Below, one piece after another: positions 20,784 through 53,193 of a stretch of 64,000 nucleotides of DNA; position 1 is the first letter of the stretch, and each line of letters starts with the position of its first letter. This stretch comes from Latrodectus hesperus (lineage: Eukaryota; Arthropoda; Arachnida; Araneae; Theridiidae). The stretch spans positions 131,635,968 through 131,699,967 of the forward strand of contig CM075850.1 in assembly GCA_037975125.1 (NCBI GenBank), in the 5' to 3' direction. Under the pieces are notes generated by a model. The model saw only the letters and a list, made by a program, of their open reading frames with translations. It was not told the origin of the DNA and searched no databases. The position numbers and the translations under genes were made by a program.

Positions 20784-21297
20784 TACTTCTTAATTTATTT
20801 GTATTAAATCTCAAATTATATAATTGCAGGACATTTTCTCTGTTTTGATCCTTTCTTAAAGAATATTCAAAATTATATTATTATCCAACTTATATTTCAT
20901 TAACAATTCATGTATAGAATTTGGCTAAACTCATTGAATTACACCATTACTTTGAATTTAATGTATTTTAAAAAATAGCTCAATAATATTCTACAAATAG
21001 TAGTATTATAATTTCTTAGAATAACTCAAAATTGTAATGCATTCCTGAATTTTTAAAATTTAATTAGTAAAGTTATTTATCTAAAATTTAGGGATACGCA
21101 AATAATTAAATCTATATAAAATTTCTCTTTATTAATTCCTCTTAATGCATTCTATAAATTAAATTTAAAATATTTATAATTATATAAATTCATAAGCCTT
21201 CACATGAAATTAGTCCTCGAATTAATTATAAAATTTTCATAATTCAAAGATTTCATATATAATTTTAAAGTTTTATTACACATTATATATATATATA
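20784..21297. other. AT-rich spacer between Tigger and mariner elements
   Basis: About 510 bp, AT-rich. It contains the candidate acceptor at 20828-20829 discussed with the orphan exon. The right end is a short TA run (21283-21299) into which the mariner-like element inserted. No other feature was seen. Confidence 0.5.
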
Positions 21298-21299
21298 TA

Positions 21300-21576
21300 C
21301 AGGGTGATTATAAAAAAACTTTGACAACATCTGCACTTCTAGCGTCCATTCTATTTAACCGATCAAGATGATACTTCAAATATAGTTCTTTTGAGATATG
21401 CGCTCGAGATTCTGTGAATGGCAACACAGTGGCCCTCGCGGTTACAGTTATAGTGACAGAAACTCGAAATTTTCGAATGGCAACGTCTACTTTTTACCAT
21501 CGCAAAATGTTCAGCACATGCGAAAACCCTAAATAGCGTTGAAACGGTACCGATATATCCGAAAACCGACGTGTTA
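21300..21576. repeat. Left terminal inverted repeat of mariner-like element 1
   Basis: It pairs with 22954-23230. Only about three mismatches occur in the outer 245 bp; the inner 30 bp (after GAAACGGTACC) are more diverged. Such long inverted repeats are unusual for classical mariners, which have about 30 bp. Confidence 0.9.
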
Positions 21577-21682
21577 TACACATACAAACAGTTCTTCAAG
21601 GCGCACGGAGGAATAATGCATACGACAGAGACAAGACACTGCTCAATGATGAGAACACATAGAGAAAAAATCTTTATTAATT

Positions 21683-22762: not shown

Positions 22763-22953
22763 ATCGTCGGCATGTGCGAGTTCCCGAATGACGACTTCGC
22801 ATACCCGCTTGGTATTTTATAGGTTTCCTACGCTGAATATCTGGCGACCGGCGTTCTGTGATTGGTTTCTTGACTCTGTCACATGCAAATTTATTGCGTG
22901 CGCCCAGATCGTGTTTTATTGGCCGGTTTTCAGAACTCTTTTTTGTGTTTGCA

Positions 22954-23227
22954 GAACACGTCCGTTTTTAGACATATGGGTACCGTTTCAACGCTATTTA
23001 GGGTTTTCGCATGTGCTGAACATTTTGCGATGGTAAAAAGTAGGCGTTGCCATTCGAAAATTTCGAGTTTCTGTCACTATAACTGTAACCGCGAGGGCCA
23101 CTGTGTTGCCATTCACAGAATCTTGAGCGCATATCTCAAAAGAACTATATTTGAAGTATCATCTTGATCGGTTAAATAGAATGGACGCTAGAAGTGCAGA
23201 TGTTGGCAAAGTTTTTTTATAATCACC

Positions 23228-23230
<3 letters not shown>
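22954..23230. repeat. Right terminal inverted repeat of mariner-like element 1
   Basis: This is the inverse of 21300-21576. It lies upstream of the transposase start and therefore probably holds its promoter. It ends at the CACCCTG terminus, directly next to an expanded TA array. Confidence 0.9.

Positions 23231-23318
<88 letters not shown>
23231..23318. repeat. (TA)n microsatellite at right end of mariner-like element 1
   Basis: Eighty-eight bp of pure TA begin at the target-site TA. The left flank of the same element has only about 17 bp of AT repeat. Confidence 0.96.
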
Positions 23319-35381: not shown

Positions 35382-35635
35382 GACTTCTATTAAAAATTTT
35401 TTTTAAAAAGTGCCTTGCCTTCCATAATATATCGTAATTTTTGCGGTAAAGCTGGAGCTAAAATATTTTTTAAAATTTTTAGGACAAAGCAGAAAGAATT
35501 TAAAGAAATTTTTTGGAATGCAAAATTTTCTACAGCAAAAATTATCATATATCCAAGTTGTTTCTGTCTGCTGGTATAAATTACCTGATCCATTGCCTAA
35601 GATTTTGAACAATATCTCAATTTAGCCAACACAAC
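35382..35635. repeat. Direct duplication, copy A (about 254 bp)
   Basis: It is nearly identical to 36621-36870: only a few substitutions and a small indel in an A/T run near its left end. The duplicated unit runs from GACTTCTAT to TTTAGCCAACACAAC. Each copy has an open minus-strand frame beginning MDQVIYTSRQKQLGY, but each also has a plausible GT donor right after MDQ. I do not claim a protein. The near-identity shows a recent event. Confidence 0.85.
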
Positions 35636-36620: not shown

Positions 36621-36870
36621 GACTTCTATAAAAAATTTTAAAAAGTGCCTTGCCTTTCATAATATATCGTAATTTTTGCGGTAAAGCTGGAGCTAAAATA
36701 TTTTTTAAAATTTTTAGGACAAAGCAGAAATAATTTAAAGAAATTTTTTGGAATGCAAAATTTTCTACAGCAAAAATTATCATATATCCAAGTTGTTTCT
36801 GTCTGCTGGTATAAATTACCTGATCCATTGCCTAAGATTTTGAACAATATCTCAATTTAGCCAACACAAC
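36621..36870. repeat. Direct duplication, copy B (about 250 bp)
   Basis: Second copy of 35382-35635 in the same orientation, 1.24 kb away. Flanks outside the unit do not match (ACAAC continues as ACAACAG in copy A and CGCTCC here). The duplication therefore ends sharply. Confidence 0.85.
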
Positions 36871-42480: not shown

Positions 42481-43425
42481 GGTACCAGAAGCACGTGCTT
42501 GACTTTTTTAGGGTGAATGGACTCATGGACCTGATCTAGCTTTGCTGATCACGGGGATTGGAAAAAACAACAACAGAATGGCCTAATCTATGTGATGAAG
42601 CTTGAGGGTGCCCAGAGGGCTTCTAGAAAAGAGCTTCGATTAATTCACGATGTTCTCTAGAAGAGTAATATCAAGAACCAATGCAGAGGGAGGAGATAAC
42701 CCAATTAAAACGAAAGTTGGTCAGACTTTCCTAAATAGTTTATGGGAAAGTCCCAAAAACGAAAGTAAAATGCTAGTGTTGCCAAAAGGAATGGCAATTT
42801 AGAAAAAACTCCCTTTAACAGAAATGGATACTTCTCCCAGAAATGACCACCAAATCAAACTAAATAGTGATATTTTGAGGTGCGGGAGTTGTTTGATAGA
42901 GAAACTTCAGGCAAAGTTTACCAGATATCGTCATATCCCGTAAGAAATCATAAGAAAAATACATGGACGCAAAAATTGTTGGATGAGATTTTTCAAAACC
43001 AAGCTTATGTTTCTTGTAAACTTATATAACAGAAGAAAAAACATTGATTACATTGACATTATTTAAAAAGTATTTTATATAGTAACATTATATATACACT
43101 ATATATTTTCATACAGTGCAAATTTCCGTAAATGGAACTAGTATAATTAAAGATATATTGTATTAAAGTACAATAAAATATATTACAATATCTTATCGTG
43201 AATAAAACTGCTAAAGCTTCTTAAAAAAAGAAAACGTAATATTAAATATAAAGTAAATTACATTTATAATGAAGAAAAATTTAAGCAAAACTGATTAAGC
43301 ATTACAATACAGAAAATCTAGATTTATATAGCTTGCAATTTTAATTACTCTTAGATAATTTCGAGTATATAATTACTGAATTCTTTTAATAGAATTGAAA
43401 TAATATTAAGTTATCTCAATAATAT
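42481..43425. other. Spacer with possible LINE debris
   Basis: 42481-42900 is somewhat GC-richer and may be further decayed LINE sequence, but no motif is clear. The rest is AT-rich. The final AT (43424-43425) could be the target duplication of the large element that follows. Confidence 0.4.
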
Positions 43426-43770
43426 CCCAAACAACCACAAAGATCCACACGACGTCTAAGAGATTTGTCCTAGACATTTTATTGGATATCGTTTTGTCTC
43501 TGAGATGTCCACACGATATCCAAATATCTACGGCATATCCACCAGTTATCCAAAGGGTCGCAGCAAATAGATGTCAAGTGGATATTCGGATATTGCGACA
43601 TCTAGTGGATGTCGCTTAGAGATTTTGGATAACCCTTGGATATACGTTAGATATTTATTAGATATCTCAGATATGTTTTGATATCCATGGGATATCCATT
43701 TGGAATTAAATACGATCTCTATGAGACATCTAAATGAAATCTGATTGGATGTCATTTGGATATCTGTGTT
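43426..43770. repeat. Left subterminal GATATCC motif array
   Basis: Over a dozen GATATC-like heptamers occur in both orientations, for example TTGGATATCG, GATATCCAAATATC, GGATATTCGGATATT, TTGATATCCATGGGATATCC and TTTGGATATCTG. The spacing is irregular (roughly 15-30 bp). The array ends abruptly near 43770, and the sequence then becomes plain AT-rich. Such arrays in transposons are usually transposase-binding sites. Confidence 0.8.
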
Positions 43771-44841
43771 TATTTTTCAGAACTTTTAAACTTTCCATGT
43801 TAGAAAATTAAAATAAAGTTGTATTTTTTTTACTTATGAAATTTTTTATCAAAATGCTTACAAATCTATAATTTTTATAAAACTCATTCAAAATTTAATG
43901 ATTGAATATATATTTTTGCACAGAATGAAAAAATATAAATTTTACAATGTTTTGACTATTTTTTATAAATAATTTGATAGACAAATTTTTTCTCTAACAC
44001 TTTGTTAAACCAAAGTTAAATTAATTTTTTGTAAATATTGCTTGTATTTTTTTCTTACAAATAGACGGTCTTTATAACATTATTTACTTACTCTGCTAGT
44101 ACTTTGAATGCTCTTTTTCAATCCTTAATGGAAATATTTTTGATGTCTAAATAAGGAAATTTTTGTTTTTGAAACTAAAAATCATTTTATTTACTAGCTT
44201 ACACATGGTAATAAACTGATTTCTAAAATAAAATGTTTGAATTTTAAAAGAATTGCAGAAATGATTGAATTTGAATTCCTTTTTGTAAACTTAAGTAGAA
44301 TAGTTTTTACAAAGAAAAACAAATTCTCTTAAAACCCCAGTGACTAAATATATATATTCTGAGTCTTAAATAATAGTGTTAGTATAGTTTTTCAATTTTT
44401 GGTTAGAACACATTTGTTGTAGAATAAATTTTAAGTGTTTACTATCAACCTGAAAAGTATCAAAACGAAAATCTAAATAATCTTAAAAAGCTTAGCTTTT
44501 AAAAGTAACAGTAATTATTTTAAGATGGTTTGTTTTGCCTAGTGCAACAAAATTATTTATTTTTGATATCTTTAAGAAAGCTGCTAGTAAGCATTTTAAA
44601 CTTCTTACACTTTAATTTTTTAAACTTGATTGATGAATCTTTAGTTTTAAAAACTTTCACATTCTTATTGAAGCTCTTTTATAGATGTCTCAAACTTGAT
44701 TAATAGAATATTGCATAATTAGAATAAGTTCATAGAAAAATACATTATAATTTATTAAAAAGTTAGATTATCTGTTTTTTCCAAGGATCAATGAACAGGC
44801 AAGGAAGTATAGAAAAACAGCAATGTTTATTTTTACAAGAA

Positions 44842-46051
44842 TTAAACAAGTGATTGAGAATTTTCTTGAATACAAATATGTTTGCTGCATCTTGCTTTGG
44901 CATGTCTAAGCCAATTTTTAATTGCCAACTCTATATCAGCATCAGTGGCAGGTCCAATCAAAGAAGGATTTTTTCGGGCAGCAGCTGTGAAATAGAAAAA
45001 AATATTTATTAATTCAAAAATAATTAAAATATGCACTAAATTTTTGTAATTCAAGCTCCCTTTGTCAGCTGCATTCCATGATATGCAGCACACAAAGCAA
45101 AGGAACAATACTCTAGAATGAAGTCTCTAAGCCTAAGTTATTAAGAATTATTAAGCCTAAGTTAAGGAAAAAAACTAAGTAACAGAAGAAAAATCAAATA
45201 AAGTTTTAAAATAAGATTAATATTGATAATCTTAGAAAACTTTTTTCCTGGGTTGCATGTCAGAATTACTTCCTAGCTCCTTATAAACATGAATATTCAC
45301 TGTCATTCACTTAAATAATTCATTAATGAAACATTTTCATCCTCTGATAAATAATGTTTTACACAAAGTTTTTAAATAACCACCAAAATAATTTAAAATA
45401 TAACAAAGAAAAAATATAATACAATAAATCACAGTGTATGTAATTTAATTTATAACAAACTGACAAAAAACTAAAAGATTTGGAATTGTTACCAAATTAA
45501 AAATAAATAATAACAATCCTAAACAAAGTACATTTATCAAATAAGTGAACCAATCTCTTACTGATGCGATTCGCCATCTACCCAGATGAAAAACTAATTC
45601 TAAAATTATGTTCAATACACAGTTCAAATAAGCATTGCCTGCCTCAGCAATGATTTATATTCTAAGTAAGGAACAGTCATTTAATTCAATTCAAATATCG
45701 TGAGAATGATATTGAGAAGCTATTGACATACCAAATACAATTTCACATAATCCGAGACTAGAAAAAACTTCTTTTCCTTTCGCACCCAGCCAGCTATAAT
45801 TTTGGGCAATAAAATCAGTCATTAATTTCTTCATAATGCGTTTTACAGTTGAATCAACTGTGTGGCCACCACAATCGGAAAGTCTAAGAATCTAAAAGAA
45901 AATTTCATCACAAATTTGATTTTTGAATATAATAAGCATTTACTCAGCATGAAAAAAATAATACCAAACAATCTTTTATAGCTTCATCTTTTAAAGAACT
46001 TTCTATTTTCTGCAAATCTTCACTTGAATTAATTGGAAGCTTTACTGGTAG
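44842..46051 (-). pseudogene. DUF4806-like C-terminal domain (3 exons of the THAP gene)
   Basis: Three exons join in frame: 46051-45965 (LPVKLPINSSEDLQKIESSL, then KDEAIKDCL), 45891-45732 (ILRLSDCGGHTVDSTVKRIM, then LMTDFIAQNYSWLGAKGKE) and 44984-44842 (AARKNPS, then DADIELAIKNWLRHAKAR, stop). Donors are GTATTA and GTATGT; acceptors are TTTTAG and TTCACAG, with a weak one (CTATTGAG) for the first. The pattern of an LP-x-ED/LE helix, GG...V...M..L......Y.W.G, and I..WLR.A..R matches DUF4806, whose function is unknown. An AATAAA lies about 10 bp after the stop. These exons are themselves undamaged. They are called pseudogene because the upstream part of the same gene has stops. Confidence 0.65.
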
Positions 46052-46480
46052 CTCAATAGGTTGAAATTACAATAGTTATCAAATTATAAAATAAAATATT
46101 CAATATTTTTTGTGCATATGTTTCATCTAACATCCCTGTAAAGTTGTAAAAATTTATTTATTATTATGAATACATGGAAAATAATTACATACTTATTAGT
46201 AAACATATTTAATTATTTCTAAATACAAATATTATAAATGTTAATTTTACAAGCTGTAAATGTGAAAAACTTGTCTAAATGAAAAGAGCAATTTGCAATT
46301 TATAGAAAGCAAAATGTTTTAGTAAATTATTATTTATAACTTTTAATGAAATGGTAATAAATTGTTTAGTACTTGAAAATTACAATGAAGTGAAAAAAAA
46401 ACTGCATTCATATTCAGAAGATTTTAAAAAATACTAAGGAAAGATTTTTTTGATAAATTAATTTCTGTTAGAAACTTTAC

Positions 46481-47171
46481 TTTCATTTTAAGCCTTGCAT
46501 TTTGTCGTAAAGTATTATGAAAATATTGTTTCTTCTTCAACAGAAGAAAACTGTTGGAAGCATGTCTAGGGCCAATTTTAGGTTGCTGTTGGAAGCAATT
46601 TTTACAACGACCAGTTTTCTTGATGTAAAAATTACTAGGAACATAACCTGAGCAGTTTTTTCCTCTATAAATATAAAATAAGTAATTTTAATACATAACA
46701 ATATTTATTTGTATTTAATAAATGAGAAAATTATTTTACTTACATATTCCTAGCATCAGCACAGATAATATACTTCTCCCCATTTTTAATCAAATTACAT
46801 ATACTTTCCATTCCTGTTAGCCTACAACTGCTCCCAATTGTAGATAAAATTCCTTTTAAGAAAACCTAATAAAATTGAAAGCTTCTTAATAAATAAAATA
46901 AGTAACCGTGCAAAAATTTAAACAAATAGAATAATAGTAAGCATACTTTGACATTAAGATTTCCATTTATTACAATCCACCTTTCTAAACAATAATCAAT
47001 AGTCCAGAACAAAAGAACCACAGAATCCCTTGTGATAGAGTATGACCATTGAGCAGACAAAGAGATGCTGGTGTAACTGTGTTTTCAAATATTCAAAATT
47101 AAATTCAGGTGTTGGTAATGAGGATTCCAGTATATCATGGTCTATTTCAGGTAATGATTCTATAATATTTT
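46481..47171 (-). pseudogene. Middle exons of the THAP-DUF4806 gene, with frameshift
   Basis: Three exons continue from the THAP part. Exon 47171-46947 starts ENIIESLPEIDHDILESSLP and then shifts frame by one base near 47058 (the CTCTTTG run), where the reading becomes LSAQWSYSITRDSVVLLFWT. Exon 46865-46744 gives VFLKGILSTIGSSCRLTG and YIICADARN. Exon 46664-46481 gives GKNCSGYVPSNFYIKKTGRC, then KNCF and a basic KKKQYFHNTLRQNARLKMK. Splice phases agree (1, 0, 2, 0) apart from the one-base insertion. The Cys pattern (C-x15-C-x2-C) and basic helix suggest a second nucleic-acid-binding module. I recognise no named domain. Confidence 0.6.
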
Positions 47172-47632
47172 CTGTAATGGAATTTAAAAAGATTATGTTA
47201 ATTTTTAAATAAATAATTAGAAACAAATTCTAAAAAAATGCTTCAATCTAAGATCATAAATTCTAACAAAATTTTTGCATATATTTCATATCACCATTCT
47301 AGTTTATTGGATAAATTTTAAATAAAAGCAAATGACATTCTTTGATCAAATGTACGTAGCAAACTTTCACCTAAAAGCAACAAATCTTTAAATAGTAACA
47401 ATTTTCATGAATGCAAATTACAAATTTGCTAAGATGAAACAGTTAATTTGAATGAGATTACTTTTTAAAAATAACCTACTGAAATAATCAATTGAGATTC
47501 ATTTTGTAAATTACAATACACTTTGAATAATAATCTATAAAATATTTATAGAACTGAATGAGTTTGATTGGGAATCATTTAGTAAATATTCAATTACTGA
47601 TAAATTTTTCTTGACAGTGATAAATTGCTTAC

Positions 47633-48037
47633 CATGCATAGAAGTTTGCTTATTTTTTACTGATGTTGGAAAATTGTCACATACTTTCTTTGCTGTATTT
47701 CTAAGAGCAGGCAGTTTTCTTTTTCTTGTGCTTGATGAAAAGTACTTGGGCAAATTTGGGAAGATGCTTGGAATAGCATCTTTCATCAAATTTGGCTTGC
47801 CTTTTGGCAATTTTTACACCTAAGCACATATATTCACAAAACATTAAAAAATGTCTTAATACATTTCAAAAAATTTATACAACACAAATAACTTACAGTT
47901 CCATCTGATAACTTTTGTGTATAATAGGTATTTAAGTCTTCTTATTTAAAGTGCAAAGAACACACTACATCTGAAGAAGTCAATTGCTTATTAGCCCGAG
48001 GAATTGCCCGTCTCCATTTTTCAAGCAAGTTTGGATC
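47633..48037 (-). pseudogene. THAP zinc-finger domain, C-terminal half (2 exons)
   Basis: Exon 48037-47897 encodes DPNLLEKWRRAIPRANKQLT, then SSDVVCSLHFK, a TAA, and EDLN...LSDGT. This has the THAP KW motif, the C-x2-H zinc pair and the HF that follows it. Exon 47819-47633 begins V, TAA, KLPKGKPNLMKDAIPSIFPN, then LPKYF: the AVPxIF box that closes the THAP fold, followed by a basic stretch. Junctions are in phase. The two in-frame TAA codons show the copy is dead, unless they are sequence errors. The N-terminal C-x2-4-C half is not adjacent; a candidate lies at 50774-50833, beyond the Tigger insertion. THAP domains bind DNA, typically transposon ends or promoters. Confidence 0.75.
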
Positions 48038-48500
48038 CTAAATCAATAATACATTATAATATGCAGAATAAATTAAGAACAAAGTTATAATTATATGTTT
48101 ACTTATGAGTATATCAGCTTTGTTAATACCAAGTTATAATTATATTTTCCAGTTTTATTTAAATCAGTGAATCAGTCACTTAAGTGATTTACTTAATTTT
48201 AGCTTTTGTATTGATTCTAAATTATATTTACTTATAATTATATTCAATAAATACAATTTAATTCAATAAATAAAGAAGGCAATTTAAAATAAACAAGGCA
48301 ATAGAGAAATATGGGAGGTAAAGTTAGATTGATATATAAATATTTGATGAATTACTTACAAGGATTTTTAAATTTTTTCACAATACACAATATCCAGAAA
48401 TAAAAAAGAAAAACACAATCAACAACCTGAAATGGTTGCATTTTAATTAACCAGCAATTATTTGATTACAAAAAAGAACTAAACTAGATAATTTATTATA

Positions 48501-50771
48501 CAGTAAGACCCCGCTTAACGCGGGGGATACGTTCCATCAAAGTAGAGCGTAATGCGAAACAGCGCTAATCGAGGCTATCTTTACATGTAAATATTGGGGT
48601 TAGGGGAAGATGGCTAGGAAATTGGTTAGGTATTAAATTTAAAAAATATGTTTTTTTAATAAAAATAAAACCAAACATTTATTTCTTAAAGCCCAAATTA
48701 ATACCAGATTATATTTCTTGCAAAAATAAAAAGAAAATATAAATAACAAAACGAATATTCTTAAAAAAAAAAACAAATAAAATTCTAAGTCAGTCATATT
48801 TAGTTAGCCTTCCGCGTTTTCAGCATTCTGCCTTTTTGTGACAAAAGCATCTAATGTTGTTTGGCTTTTTCTTTTGCGTTGTTCTCTTAAAAGTTCTTCA
48901 TAAGCGGATAGAGCATCTCTAACACCACGCCTTACTTTTGAGCTCCTGTCAAAATTCGGATCATTTTCAATGAATTGATTCATTATTTCAGTTATGGTAG
49001 ACAAACTCCTTTTTACAAACGCCATCGAAAGTTCTTTTTGCTCTTCTTCTGAATCACTGCTGTCAACATTTTTGTTTTCTTCTTGTTCAGTTAATTCCTT
49101 GAGCTCATCATTAGAAAGACTAGCCGATGCTTCTTGAATTATTTCTTCGACATCTTCCACATTTACCCCTTCAAAACCGGTTTGCTTCGTTAATTTCTCT
49201 ATCTCTTCCACTATTTGATCCACATTGGCAGAGTGTCCAACGTCATCGCTCTTACTTAAATCCGGCCAAATATTCTTCCATATTCCTTTCAAAGATCTTT
49301 CTGTTACCTCATTCCAAGAAAGGCCTATGTTTTCTACAGCATCCACGATGTTGTAGTTTTTCCAAAATTCTCTTATGGACTGGTTCTCTTCTCCGTCTGT
49401 TTTTTCAAACATTTGCTTAAAGGTTCGCCGCAAGTAATAAGCCTTAAAATTTGATTAACGCCTTGGTCCATTGGTTGAATAAGGGCAGTTGTATTAGGCG
49501 GCAAGAAAACCACTTTGACTGGAATGCATGTTGTTAAGTCTGATAAATTTGTTGGGTGGCTTGGAGGATTATTAATTAACAGAAGTGCTTTTTGTTCAAG
49601 TTTTTTAATTTCGCAATAACGTTTAACTGACGGGCAGAAATGTTCAGTGAACCAATCCTGGAAAATTTTCGCAGTTATCCATGATTTTTTATTAGACTCC
49701 CAAATTACAGGTAAAGTTGATTTAGATATGCCTTTCATCGCTCTTGGGTTTTTGGAATGGTAAATTAGTAATGGTTTTAATTTAAAATATCCGCTTGCGT
49801 TAACACCTAGTAGAAGGGTTAAGCGATCTTTTGCAGATTTAAATCCTGGTGCCCGTTTCTCTTCACGGGATAGAAATGTTCGTTACGGCATTCTTTTCCA
49901 AAACAAGCCTGTTTCATCAACATTAAAAACCAATTCTGGAGGATAGTTTCCTTCTTCAATTATTTTTTTAATATCGCTGGAAATTCAGCCGCCGCTTTTG
50001 TATCACCACTTGCTGCTTCTCCTGTAATCTTTATGTTGTGAAGGTTACTTCGATGTTTAAATCTATTAAACCATCCTCGACTAGCAACGAAAGTTTCACT
50101 TGTGTCAATTGTCTCAGCCTGAATGTAATTAAAAATTCTTCTAGCTTTTTCCCTTATGATAGATTGGCTTAATGGCATATTGCGGTCAATTTCGTCGTCA
50201 AACCATATAGACAGTCGTTTTTCCATTTCCTGTATGATATTATTTCTAGAACGGGTAATTCTAGTTGCAGAGCTTGACGTAGTTGTAGTTGCCGATGACA
50301 GTACTTTTTCTTTATTCTTCATGATGGTCCTTATTGTTGAAGTTGGCAAATTCAATGAAGCACTAATTAGAGTTTGACGTTCACCAGAATCTAATCTTCT
50401 AATCACTTTCATTTTAGTTTTGAGTGAAATACTTTTTCTGGTTGCTTTCTTTTCTTTTTCATTATCACAAATAGTAAAAACTAAAGATCAAAATATTTGA
50501 CACTGTAATATAGTATTAAATATGTAAATTAATACCTACTTACAATAATGTCAACAAATGTTTCCAATAATAAAAATATGTCTGTACAATGCCGCACCAA
50601 ACAAGAAACACAAGTACACTCTTTCGGATATGTATTTGAAACCTATCGATGCATTATATTTCGGGGAATCCCCGTATGCTGCGAGCGATTTCGTGGAATC
50701 CCCGGTTTGAAATAAAAGAGCGCTAAACCGAAACAGCGCTAAGCGAAACAGCGTTAAGCGGGGTCTTACTG
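48501..50771 (-). mobile_element. Tigger/pogo-type DNA transposon, copy 2, nested
   Basis: The two ends share a perfect 21-bp inverted terminus beginning CAGTAAGACCCCGCTTAACG. TA lies outside each (48499-48500, 50772-50773). Subterminal GCGCTAA / CGTTAAGCG motifs are repeated near both ends. The transposase is on the minus strand and is broken. It interrupts the larger THAP-DUF4806 element. Length is 2,271 bp. The lineage differs from copy 1, whose termini are different. Confidence 0.94.
48804..50450 (-). pseudogene. Tigger/pogo transposase of copy 2, inactivated
   Basis: From about 50450 the minus strand encodes an N-terminal HTH (RKSISLKTKMKVIRRLDSGE, then TSTIRTIMKNKEKV) and a CENP-B HTH (RLSIWFDDE, REKARRIFNYIQ, ASRGWFNRFK). 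A frameshift occurs at an A run near 49962. The DDE domain then starts NVDETGLFWKRMP, followed at once by TAA. The second Asp motif reads LLINNPPSHP at about 49570, Asn replacing Asp. The third, IQPMDQGV, is kept, and a frameshift follows near 49455. The C-terminal part (48804-49433) is an acidic region with EEIIQEAS and DSSDSEEEQ, ending in a Lys/Arg-rich tail. With two frameshifts, a stop and a catalytic change, it is not functional. Confidence 0.9.
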
Positions 50772-50773
50772 TA

Positions 50774-50833
50774 TTTGATAACAAAATTCAATCGCCGATT
50801 GCATCCCAGATCGCAAAAATAATACAAAAGCAT
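50774..50833 (-). CDS. Candidate first THAP exon, cut by Tigger copy 2
   Basis: ATG at 50833-50831 opens MLLYYFCDLGCNRRLNFVIK, with a C-x3-C close to the start, as in THAP N-termini (M-x3-5-C-x2-4-C-x-N). The frame runs straight into the TA where Tigger copy 2 is inserted, and the THAP C-terminal half begins 460 bp past the other side of the insertion. If Tigger is removed, the frame meets a stop at once, so either a donor was destroyed or this match is chance. Position near the right terminus of the large element supports it. The evidence is short and weak. Confidence 0.25.
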
Positions 50834-51149
50834 ACATTTTATTCATTTTACAACATAGACTAACTTATCAAGATAAAAATTATTCATTGAAAATAAAAGT
50901 AGATGAAATATATTTTGCACGTTGTATACCTTTGGTGCACTAAAAAGGGTTGGTAGTTTTTGCGAGGTTAAATTAATTGCCGATTTTAATTTCACTTCAC
51001 TTATTGAGTTAAACTACAGGCACTTAACAGCTTAAATCTTTTCTTAAGTTACAGTAAGAGCCCCATTTAAAATCTAACATATTTAAACACAATAAAAATT
51101 TTAAATAAAAATTCCTTGTTTTCACTCGTGTTTACATTATACCATTCTT

Positions 51150-51480
51150 TAGATGTATAGGAGATATCTAGGCTTAAATATCTAAACAATATCTATAACA
51201 AGTACATCCAGTAATATCTAACTTTGAAATATCTAATAGATATCCATGTGAAGCGATTTTGAGATAGCCACATTGGAAAAGTTGTGCATATCTATGAGAT
51301 ATCCCTAGCATATCTCCATGTTAATATCTAAACTATGTTACCTCTGTGATATCTCATGGATATCTAAGTCGTGGATATCCAAATTGTAGACGTCTAATAG
51401 ATGTGTTTTATGTCTAACAGATATCTGGATCTAAATTAGATATGTTTTGGATATCTAAGAGATATCAATGGTTGTGTGGG
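51150..51480. repeat. Right subterminal GATATCC motif array
   Basis: GGAGATATCTAGG, AATAGATATCCATG, ATGAGATATCCC, CTCATGGATATCTAAG, GTGGATATCC and TTGGATATCTAAGAGATATC occur in the last 330 bp before the GTTGTGTGGG terminus. The array shares motifs with the left array, but the two do not align base by base. They are therefore motif arrays rather than long inverted repeats. Confidence 0.8.
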
Positions 51481-51835
51481 ATAGGATTTAAAATTAGCAA
51501 AGCATAACAGGGTATATAATTTAAAGTTAACAAAACATGTTTTTATTAGTATTATTTCATTTCTGAAATTCACCACTTCTTTTAGCATTCAGTAAAATAA
51601 TTAAGTTTTCTGTAAACAGAGGTATCATAATTACTTGTATGTTTCGATATATCTCTCGATATTGATATAATCTTATAATAGTATAAAAATAATTGTAGCA
51701 CAAGTAAAAACTTTTAATTTACATTAAAGACCTATCGATGAATTCATGCACTCTAAAAAAGCGAAAGTTTGCCAATCAAGAATAATATTACCCCTGTATT
51801 ATCATCCCTAATTATTAATTGATTATATATATATA

Positions 51836-51992: not shown

Positions 51993-52087
51993 GTTGGATT
52001 TCTGATGTAGGATTATGCAAAGCAACAAACGATATAAAAAGAAGCAACTGCAGCAGGTAATGGTAGTCGAAGCTGGTATGCATCGCA

Positions 52088-53193
52088 ATGTTGTCCATAG
52101 TTGAGAAAGCCCTCTTAGTTAAACTGTTTTACAAGAATTCGGAAAGTGCCATTGCGGCATTGCGAGCATATCGCTACATGAAGGGTATGCGAGATAGCAA
52201 AGGACCAATAACGTCTTCTGCCTTGAACAAAATTGTGAAAAAGTTTGAAGCTACAGGTTCTTTGGCATCACGTCAAAGAAGTTTACGTTCCTCAACTGCA
52301 GCTGCTGTTGCCACGACAGTGGAGCAGACGGTGCAAGCCATGTCGGCGGTTGCTGCATATGGGGAGTGCAGTGCTCGAGAAGTTTCGAGGCAGACAGGAG
52401 TGTCGTACGGAAGTGTCTGGAGAGCGCTGCGAGTAACTTTGCAACGGTATCCCTACAAGTTGCAATATAACTAAAAACTGAAACCTCCTGACTTCGACTC
52501 TCGCCGACATTTTGCGAATTTGGTCTTCATTAAGATGGAAAAGCAGCACGACTGGCTTCACACTGTGCTTTGGACAGATGAAGCACATTTCACACTCTCT
52601 GGCGCTGTTAACACCCACAATTGTCGAGTGTGGACCACAGAAAATCCACATGCATTTGTTGAGGTACCCTTGCAACAGCCTAAAGTGACAGTCTGGTGTG
52701 GCTTCACTGCTGATTTCATAATTAGTCCATTTTTTTCGAGGAAGTCACACAGACAGGTTTCCAAACAGTTTCTGTCACCGGTAAGCGATATCTAGCACTG
52801 TTACAGAACAGCATTATTCCTGAACTGCAAGCGTGACAGGCACTCCAAACAGTCACCTTTATGCAAGATGGAGCACCACCTCATATTGCTCTGCCTGTGC
52901 AACCCCTGCTACGCTCAACATTTGGGGAGGATAGTATTATCAGTCGCTACTTTAATCACGCATGGCCTCCAAGATCTCCAGATCTCACACCCTGTGACTT
53001 TTGGCTGTGGGGGTTCTTGAAGTCAAAAGTGTACAGCGACCAACCGGCATCACTAGCGCCACTGAAAGATGCCATCCGCCAAAATGTGTCTGCCGTAACG
53101 CAAGAAATGCTACTAAATGTTGTGAATGGTGTGGTGACTCGTCTCACAGCTTTACTTCTGAATGATGGACAGCACATTGAACATTTACTGTAG
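52088..53193 (+). pseudogene. Mariner/Tc1-superfamily transposase of element 2, inactivated
   Basis: ATG at 52088 starts an HTH of the DUF4817 type (VEKALLVKLFYKNSESAIAA...LNKIVKKFEATG). A TAA after PYKLQYN (52472-52474) is followed in the same frame by KLKPPDFDSRRHFANLV and the first catalytic Asp (VLWTDEAHFTL). A one-base loss in the T run at about 52735 shifts the frame before FFEEVTQTG. A TGA follows in PELQA*QALQ. The last part has MQDGAPPHIA and SPDLTPCDFWLWG, with 42 residues between the second and third Asp. It ends near 53193. The domain order and acidic triad are those of element 1. Two stops and one shift make it non-functional. Confidence 0.9.

Follow-up and report, generated by a model that had tools for sequence, protein, structure and literature searches.

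A probable non-autonomous CMC-type DNA transposon family with phased GATATC arrays and a dead THAP-DUF4806 passenger in Latrodectus hesperus

The window analysed here is a 64,000-nucleotide stretch of the genome of the spider Latrodectus hesperus (contig CM075850.1, positions 131,635,968 to 131,699,967 of the forward strand), and coordinates given without a locus name are positions in it. Positions 43426 to 51480 hold a 5,782-bp DNA transposon into which a 2,271-bp pogo/Tigger transposon is nested (48501..50771, minus strand); the latter has TA on both sides and shows DDE_1 and CENP-B_N/HTH_Tnp_Tc5 domains in a Pfam scan. The outer element begins with a 12-bp terminal inverted repeat, CCCAAACAACCA (43426..43437, plus strand), which is exact in 11 of the 13 two-ended copies described below and differs by one base in L016 and L024, and it closes with the partner repeat at 51469..51480 (CCCACACAACCA on the minus strand). 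Both repeats are flanked by AT, the two halves of a 2-bp target-site duplication at 43424..43425 and 51481..51482. Inside the repeats lie a left end (43426..43770, plus strand) built of a palindromic RGATATCY array and a right end (51150..51480, minus strand) built of a GATATC array, both phased at 11 bp. The space between is occupied by gene pieces on the minus strand: THAP exons (47632..48037), exons of a Cys/basic middle region running from ENIIES... to KVKFLTEI (46460..47172), and the 3′ exons of a DUF4806 gene (44842..46063).

The terminal repeats give the only two exact matches of the 12-mer in the window, and with up to two mismatches allowed 5 matches are observed where 4.5 are expected, so that the pair alone proves nothing; it is the arrays and the genomic copies that make the element real. 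The motif ATATCY/RGATAT occurs 16 times in the 345 bp of the left end and 24 times in the 331 bp of the right end, as against 5 times in the 7,300-bp interior. In the family consensus the arrays resolve into palindromic RGATATCY units at 11-bp steps. GAYRTC occurs 12 times in the left and 13 times in the right consensus end, compared with means of 0.89 and 0.78 and maxima of 6 and 5 in 5,000 first-order simulations, and self-match at lag 11 is 0.446 on the left and 0.400 on the right, where simulation gives means of 0.268 and 0.281 and none of 3,000 simulations attains the observed values. Genome-wide, the bare 12-mer CCCAMACAACCA has 338+325 matches versus 64+55 for a control, while the terminal repeat with GATATC within 30 bases returned 27+51 pattern rows, some ends being counted twice, versus 0+0 for the reversed control. 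Among the first 100 places listed, all 17 neighbouring CCCAMACAACCA pairs no more than 12 kb apart point inward.

A genome search with the left end gave 134 candidates, and each of the 40 that were scored matches at 95-100% identity. Twenty of the 40 were taken for inspection; 12 have both ends, and the other 8 (L009, L011, L013, L014, L017, L018, L019 and L027), in which both ends are not covered, were left out of the duplication count. With the window copy added, all 13 two-ended copies carry identical 2 bp on both sides (AT in five, AA in four, TA in three and TT in one). Five full copies measure 5,781-5,783 bp, beside 5,782 bp for the window copy minus its Tigger, which none of the 12 others contains; through deletions and insertions the remaining two-ended copies range from 3,935 to 6,371 bp. 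The joined flanks of the 13 copies were compared with the inspected loci and the window for empty sites. The insertion at L020 sits in a repeat, and an uninterrupted paralogue of that repeat in L019 has the TA once. The joined flanks of L026 find a full-length match in L018 (97.7%) and those of L012 a weaker one in their own locus (82.7%); for the other copies no full-length paralogue was found among these sequences. The family moved very recently, since L020, L021, L022, L024 and L026 are mutually 99.948-99.983% identical. The first-pass annotation of this DNA, made from the letters alone, had read the interval as one element of about 5.8 kb plus a nested Tigger, citing inverted 12-bp termini with AT outside them and dense arrays at both ends, and had made that reading depend on further copies sharing the two ends, to be aligned for exact ends and empty sites; the termini, flanks and arrays are where it placed them, and the many two-ended copies and the empty site bear it out.

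It had also described minus-strand pieces in the order THAP, Cys/basic, DUF4806, and this too holds: the THAP match (E=1.4e-8) covers only profile positions 26-87 of 87, the DUF4806 match has E=1.5e-8, and the two are the only Pfam matches above cut-off in the scanned gene pieces, both on the minus strand. An in-frame TAA in the THAP exons (at about 47943) is common to the consensus of the 13 copies, to L020, taken as the youngest subfamily, and to the window copy, and an exon with the first zinc ligands is recognisable in none of the three; the reading of the gene as dead applies to these sequences rather than to each copy singly. The THAP and DUF4806 parts join at about 46063, the very point at which homology to a transposase-bearing relative, L036, ends. 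Read by eye, the consensus junction lacks the acceptor AG found in L036 before the DUF4806 exon, which argues that the chimera is not spliced as one protein. The THAP-DUF4806 ‘gene’ is thus a dead passenger, and the multiplication of a copy with a dead gene implies that the family was moved in trans.

As to the source of the passenger, five THAP proteins from databases (P0001-P0005) can be aligned to its THAP and middle exons; only P0004 among them is named (from the spider Oedothorax gibbosus). By eye P0001 runs on into a region resembling P elements, but THAP is its only Pfam match, so a P-like donor of these exons is a lead and not a result; P0005 also carries PF21787, a P-type catalytic domain. 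A homologue search with the DUF4806 region gave 159 candidates, none at E<=0.001, and the structure model of the DUF4806 exon, with a predicted local distance difference test score (pLDDT) of 58, was too poor for a structure search.

Copies that bear a transposase were found in the same lineage, L036 and L037 by pairing left-end matches with right-end pattern matches. L036 (9,538 bp) has both ends; its identity to the consensus is 93.6% over 0.52 kb at one end and 88-91% over about 2.6 kb of the consensus at the other, where the match spans 3.4 kb of L036 with insertions included; its flanks are AT on both sides, provided that the last terminal base is read as mutated. In its interior lie a DDE transposase gene and a DUF4806 gene on the same strand, both broken. 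The N-terminus of this accessory gene is unlike THAP (VNFTDTNEIEGVPLT...CLWPPFKR), and the gene gives a DUF4806 match at E=5.3e-6 when read through and joined to the downstream exons of the window copy. L037 shares the right end and the transposase of L036 and retains the first accessory exon stretch (L036 4552-4685, 95.5%). In L039, L040 and L041 the right end is 88-96% identical over 520 bp, followed by the transposase about 1 kb inside; the left ends of L037 and L041 are among the left-end genome matches.

Alignment of these copies locates the exchange. With the consensus read on its minus strand, positions 1 to about 520 find a match in each of the five transposase-bearing copies, so that the last 520 bp of the right end are common to them, and from 3147 onward the consensus matches L036 again, entering the DUF4806 exon. 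The DUF4806 exons of the window have their counterpart at L036 6239-7760 (89.7-90.5% identical) and are inherited from the transposase-bearing ancestor. Between about 520 and 3147 the consensus has about 2.63 kb with the THAP and middle exons that L036 lacks (46063..50962 in the window, minus strand, Tigger excluded from the length). It takes the place of 5.6 kb in L036 that hold the transposase gene, the 5′ part of the accessory gene and a nested Merlin.

Several further observations concern these copies. The nested Merlin/ISXO2-type transposase (L036:2249-3097, minus strand; DDE_Tnp_IS1595, E=1.2e-12) sits inside the transposase gene of L036, and L037 carries a nested long interspersed nuclear element (LINE) and a Tigger-like piece. 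The flank of the L037 insertion codes at L037:9873-9965 (minus strand) for part of another transposase from this lineage, one element having inserted into another. Finally, L011, L012 and L014 have about 235 extra bases in common at element position ~1358; because L036 also has extra bases there (429), the length difference may be a deletion in the other copies and not an insertion in these three.

The class of the linked transposase was judged from its motifs. A composite assembled from L036 and L037 has D90, D169, C188..C191, H369...H373 and E393, and an open frame of 680 amino acids from its ATG in a relative, L038, has the same order (D196, D272, C291..C294, H489...H493, E513). In the consulted portion of PMC12730594, transposases of the CMCT clade (EnSpm/CACTA, Mirage, Chapaev, Transib) are given the order D, D, C(2)C, H(3-4)H, E, with target-site duplications of 2 to 5 bp and 5′-CA..TG-3′ termini ‘in most cases’, not obligatorily. 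The motif order is present, by motif only, in the related copies, the window copy itself having no transposase, and the 2-bp duplication of all 13 family copies falls within the range. On motifs and duplication, the lineage belongs with CMC-type (EnSpm/CACTA-Mirage-Chapaev) transposons, with unusual CCCA..TGGG termini. A genome search with the transposase gave 121 scored match rows of 712 candidates, some genes having more than one row; long open frames (541-724 amino acids, stop-free match) are confined to relatives with 38-48% identity to the composite, and the closest copies (75-95%) are broken or partial. Stop-free frames of 630-724 amino acids at 38-48% identity were noted at C2:50619680, C2059, C1946, C17:7745541, C8:91678925, C8:91689912, C5:10721664, C11:3424220, C12:18477764, C3:59390310, C11:47576208 and C2166. 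In a sequence search of solved structures the composite had no matches and L038 had 8 at chance level (best E=0.47).

Pairs of CCCAMACAACCA also delimit other families. The recurrent size is above all about 2.5 kb (L030), with single examples of 2.9 kb (L031) and 4.0-5.6 kb (L033-L035); blastn matches between their ends and the consensus show 66-78% identity, none being listed for L032, and matching 2-bp flanks are seen in L031, L033 and L034. No match to the THAP, middle or DUF4806 parts was found in L030-L035 at E<=1; the sole row at that threshold belongs to L029 (E=0.010) and lies in a LINE, and rows with E of 1-10 look like chance. Two candidates for an autonomous partner were rejected here: L029, whose 7.5 kb are a 2.5-kb element plus an internal LINE, and families C and D (L031-L035), in which neither the transposase (tblastn, E<=0.1) nor the THAP, middle and DUF4806 parts found a match.

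The explanation that we favour, and consider very probable, is that the window holds a copy of a non-autonomous cut-and-paste CMC-type DNA transposon whose transposase region was replaced and which a Tigger later interrupted. The parent element would have had two genes on one strand, for a DDE transposase and for a DUF4806 protein, enclosed by 12-bp CCCAMACAACCA repeats and GATATC arrays phased at 11 bp. A stretch of about 2.6 kb with the 5′ exons of a THAP gene would then have taken the place of the transposase gene and of the 5′ part of its DUF4806 neighbour, and the derivative, having retained both ends, would have gone on moving, with the Tigger entering the window copy afterwards. Acting in trans, a CMC-type transposase would cut at the terminal repeats, and the DUF4806 protein of the parent would bind the arrays and assemble the ends, as TNPA does in plant En/Spm. 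Most likely the family still moves with the enzyme of related elements.

A number of findings weigh against this explanation. Only in L036 were transposase, DUF4806 and both ends seen together; L039 and L040 were seen without their far ends, the DUF4806 exons of L037 were not detected, and the terminal repeat of L041 is inexact. The five transposase copies were chosen for a nearby family end, and other close transposase matches (C69, C9:50.06M, C11:78.94M, C6:83.6M and others) have no listed exact end nearby. No intact transposase was found within an element with CCCAMACAACCA ends. No exact CCCAMACAACCA lies within millions of bases of L038 in a list covering contigs C1 and C2, and its ends were not seen; the L038 family thus probably has other termini. 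The termini of the window lineage are CCCA..TGGG and not the CA..TG usual in the CMCT clade, and L029, L030 and L035 have no matching 2-bp flanks. In Pfam the composite matched no transposase profile, and the best match of L038, DUF1258, stays below cut-off (E=0.057; 13.4 versus 33.1 bits). DUF1258 is equated with Mirage transposases in the excerpt of PMC3985635 at hand. Genome profile searches with PF02992 and PF16064 gave no matches, in control genomes as here, so they do not show absence. The transposase structure model (pLDDT 38) was unusable.

Other accounts of the THAP-DUF4806 gene are considerably harder to sustain. It could once have been a working accessory, its THAP head having replaced the DUF4806 N-terminus and served the element before decaying, and the shared orientation and order of the THAP, middle and DUF4806 exons, with both domains still recognisable, fit such a past; the loss at the junction, by eye, of the splice acceptor of the L036 DUF4806 exon speaks against it, as does the fact that the consensus and L020 have the stop and show no first zinc exon that can be recognised, and we regard it as unlikely. 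The very recent movement, and the lack of any other recognised gene in the family, might suggest that the THAP-DUF4806 protein acts as a transposase of a new kind or as a factor that moves the family. This idea is largely refuted, and we give it next to no credence: both the consensus and the most recent copies carry the gene in broken form, nothing that matches it turned up in related families with similar ends, and L036 has a DDE transposase between matching ends. The window family is not a new transposase type. Of the two options left by the first-pass annotation, a non-autonomous carrier or a new type of transposase, the former therefore survives, given the dead gene in the family and the transposase in related copies of the same lineage instead. 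Its suggestion that the THAP-DUF4806 protein recognises the arrays is not supported, given the same stop and unrecognised zinc exon, and given L030-L035, which have similar ends and arrays with no THAP or DUF4806 match. The longer copy L036 has a DDE transposase gene and a DUF4806 gene, both broken, without THAP.

The THAP domain and the AT flanks of the window copy might instead suggest the P superfamily or ISL2EU. THAP domains occur in the P superfamily, whose target-site duplication is 8 bp. They also occur in ISL2EU (PHIS), for which the part of PMC4482050 consulted gives an AT duplication and termini usually starting with GG. In the present family the duplication is AA, TT, TA or AT, not always AT and not 8 bp, the termini start with CCC and not GG, and the linked transposase has CMC motifs. 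Membership in either group was rejected on the flank and terminal features, and we put its likelihood very low. No P-type catalytic domain rose above cut-off in the scanned gene pieces, and the YqaJ exonuclease, the second gene of ISL2EU, was absent from their Pfam scans, in which no dedicated search for it was made.

Among known systems, the family thus placed with CMC-type transposons resembles the CMC/CMCT group, Mirage in particular, in its 2-bp duplication and the motif order of the linked transposase, the DUF1258 match being subthreshold; it differs in its CCCA..TGGG termini, its DUF4806 companion gene and its 11-bp-phased palindromic arrays. THAP proteins of P-like elements share the THAP domain and the alignable middle region (P0001-P0005), whereas the window family has only 5′ exons, no recognised P-type catalytic region and ends that are not of P type. 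Gene capture by non-autonomous elements is familiar from CACTA capture and Pack-MULEs, where, as here, a transposase-less copy filled with the exons of another gene multiplies; the exons here seemingly come from a THAP gene that is perhaps itself transposon-derived. Plant En/Spm CACTA elements are alike in having short terminal repeats, dense subterminal arrays and a transposase accompanied by a second gene. In En/Spm, as far as the available portion of PMC2613891 describes it, TNPD acts as the transposase, TNPA binds to the repeats in the subterminal regions, and derivatives with deletions are mobilised in trans. Mobilisation in trans is what we propose for the window family, and the second protein of the lineage, DUF4806, would be a putative array binder comparable to TNPA in role; the motif, a GATATC palindrome at 11-bp steps, is unlike that of plant En/Spm. 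More speculatively, and with rather little probability in our estimate, DUF4806 proteins may be the array-binding accessories of a large animal CMC-type lineage, counterparts of TNPA, with a THAP head here swapped in from another superfamily before decay.

Three neighbouring features of the window deserve mention. Just beyond the right end of the element, an open reading frame at 52067-52474 (plus strand) has a DUF4817 helix-turn-helix match (E=1.6e-8) and is possibly a mariner-like transposase fragment. Inverted repeats of 305 nt at 21284-21588 and 22942-23246, 96% complementary and 1,353 nt apart, are a candidate for another DNA transposon with long terminal repeats. Direct repeats of 235 nt at 35401-35635 and 36636-36870, 99% identical and 1,235 nt from start to start, could be the long terminal repeats of a small element.

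The DUF4806 domain has no assigned role; proteins that combine it with a similar N-terminus are common in the genomes of Hydra and of insects. In the excerpts of the literature that we found, DUF4806 is reported to be enriched among the domains of the beetle Trypodendron lineatum, to occur in four genes specific to zebrafish, on chromosome 4, and to be listed in a Hydra viridissima domain table (row 69, 54, 6, 0, 1, 0, 0, in an excerpt without the column headings); a transposon role is not described in these excerpts, and a description in Repbase only is possible. The presence of a DUF4806 gene beside a CMC-type transposase between matching ends suggests that DUF4806 proteins may serve as helpers in one group of animal transposons, and it offers a testable reason for such a distribution, namely that DUF4806 genes may be carried along as accessory genes of transposons. 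The 11-bp-phased palindromic arrays provide a ready DNA target for a binding assay. For the spider itself, because the youngest copies of this transposase-less family are 99.95-99.98% identical, an active transposase probably existed very recently in the species.

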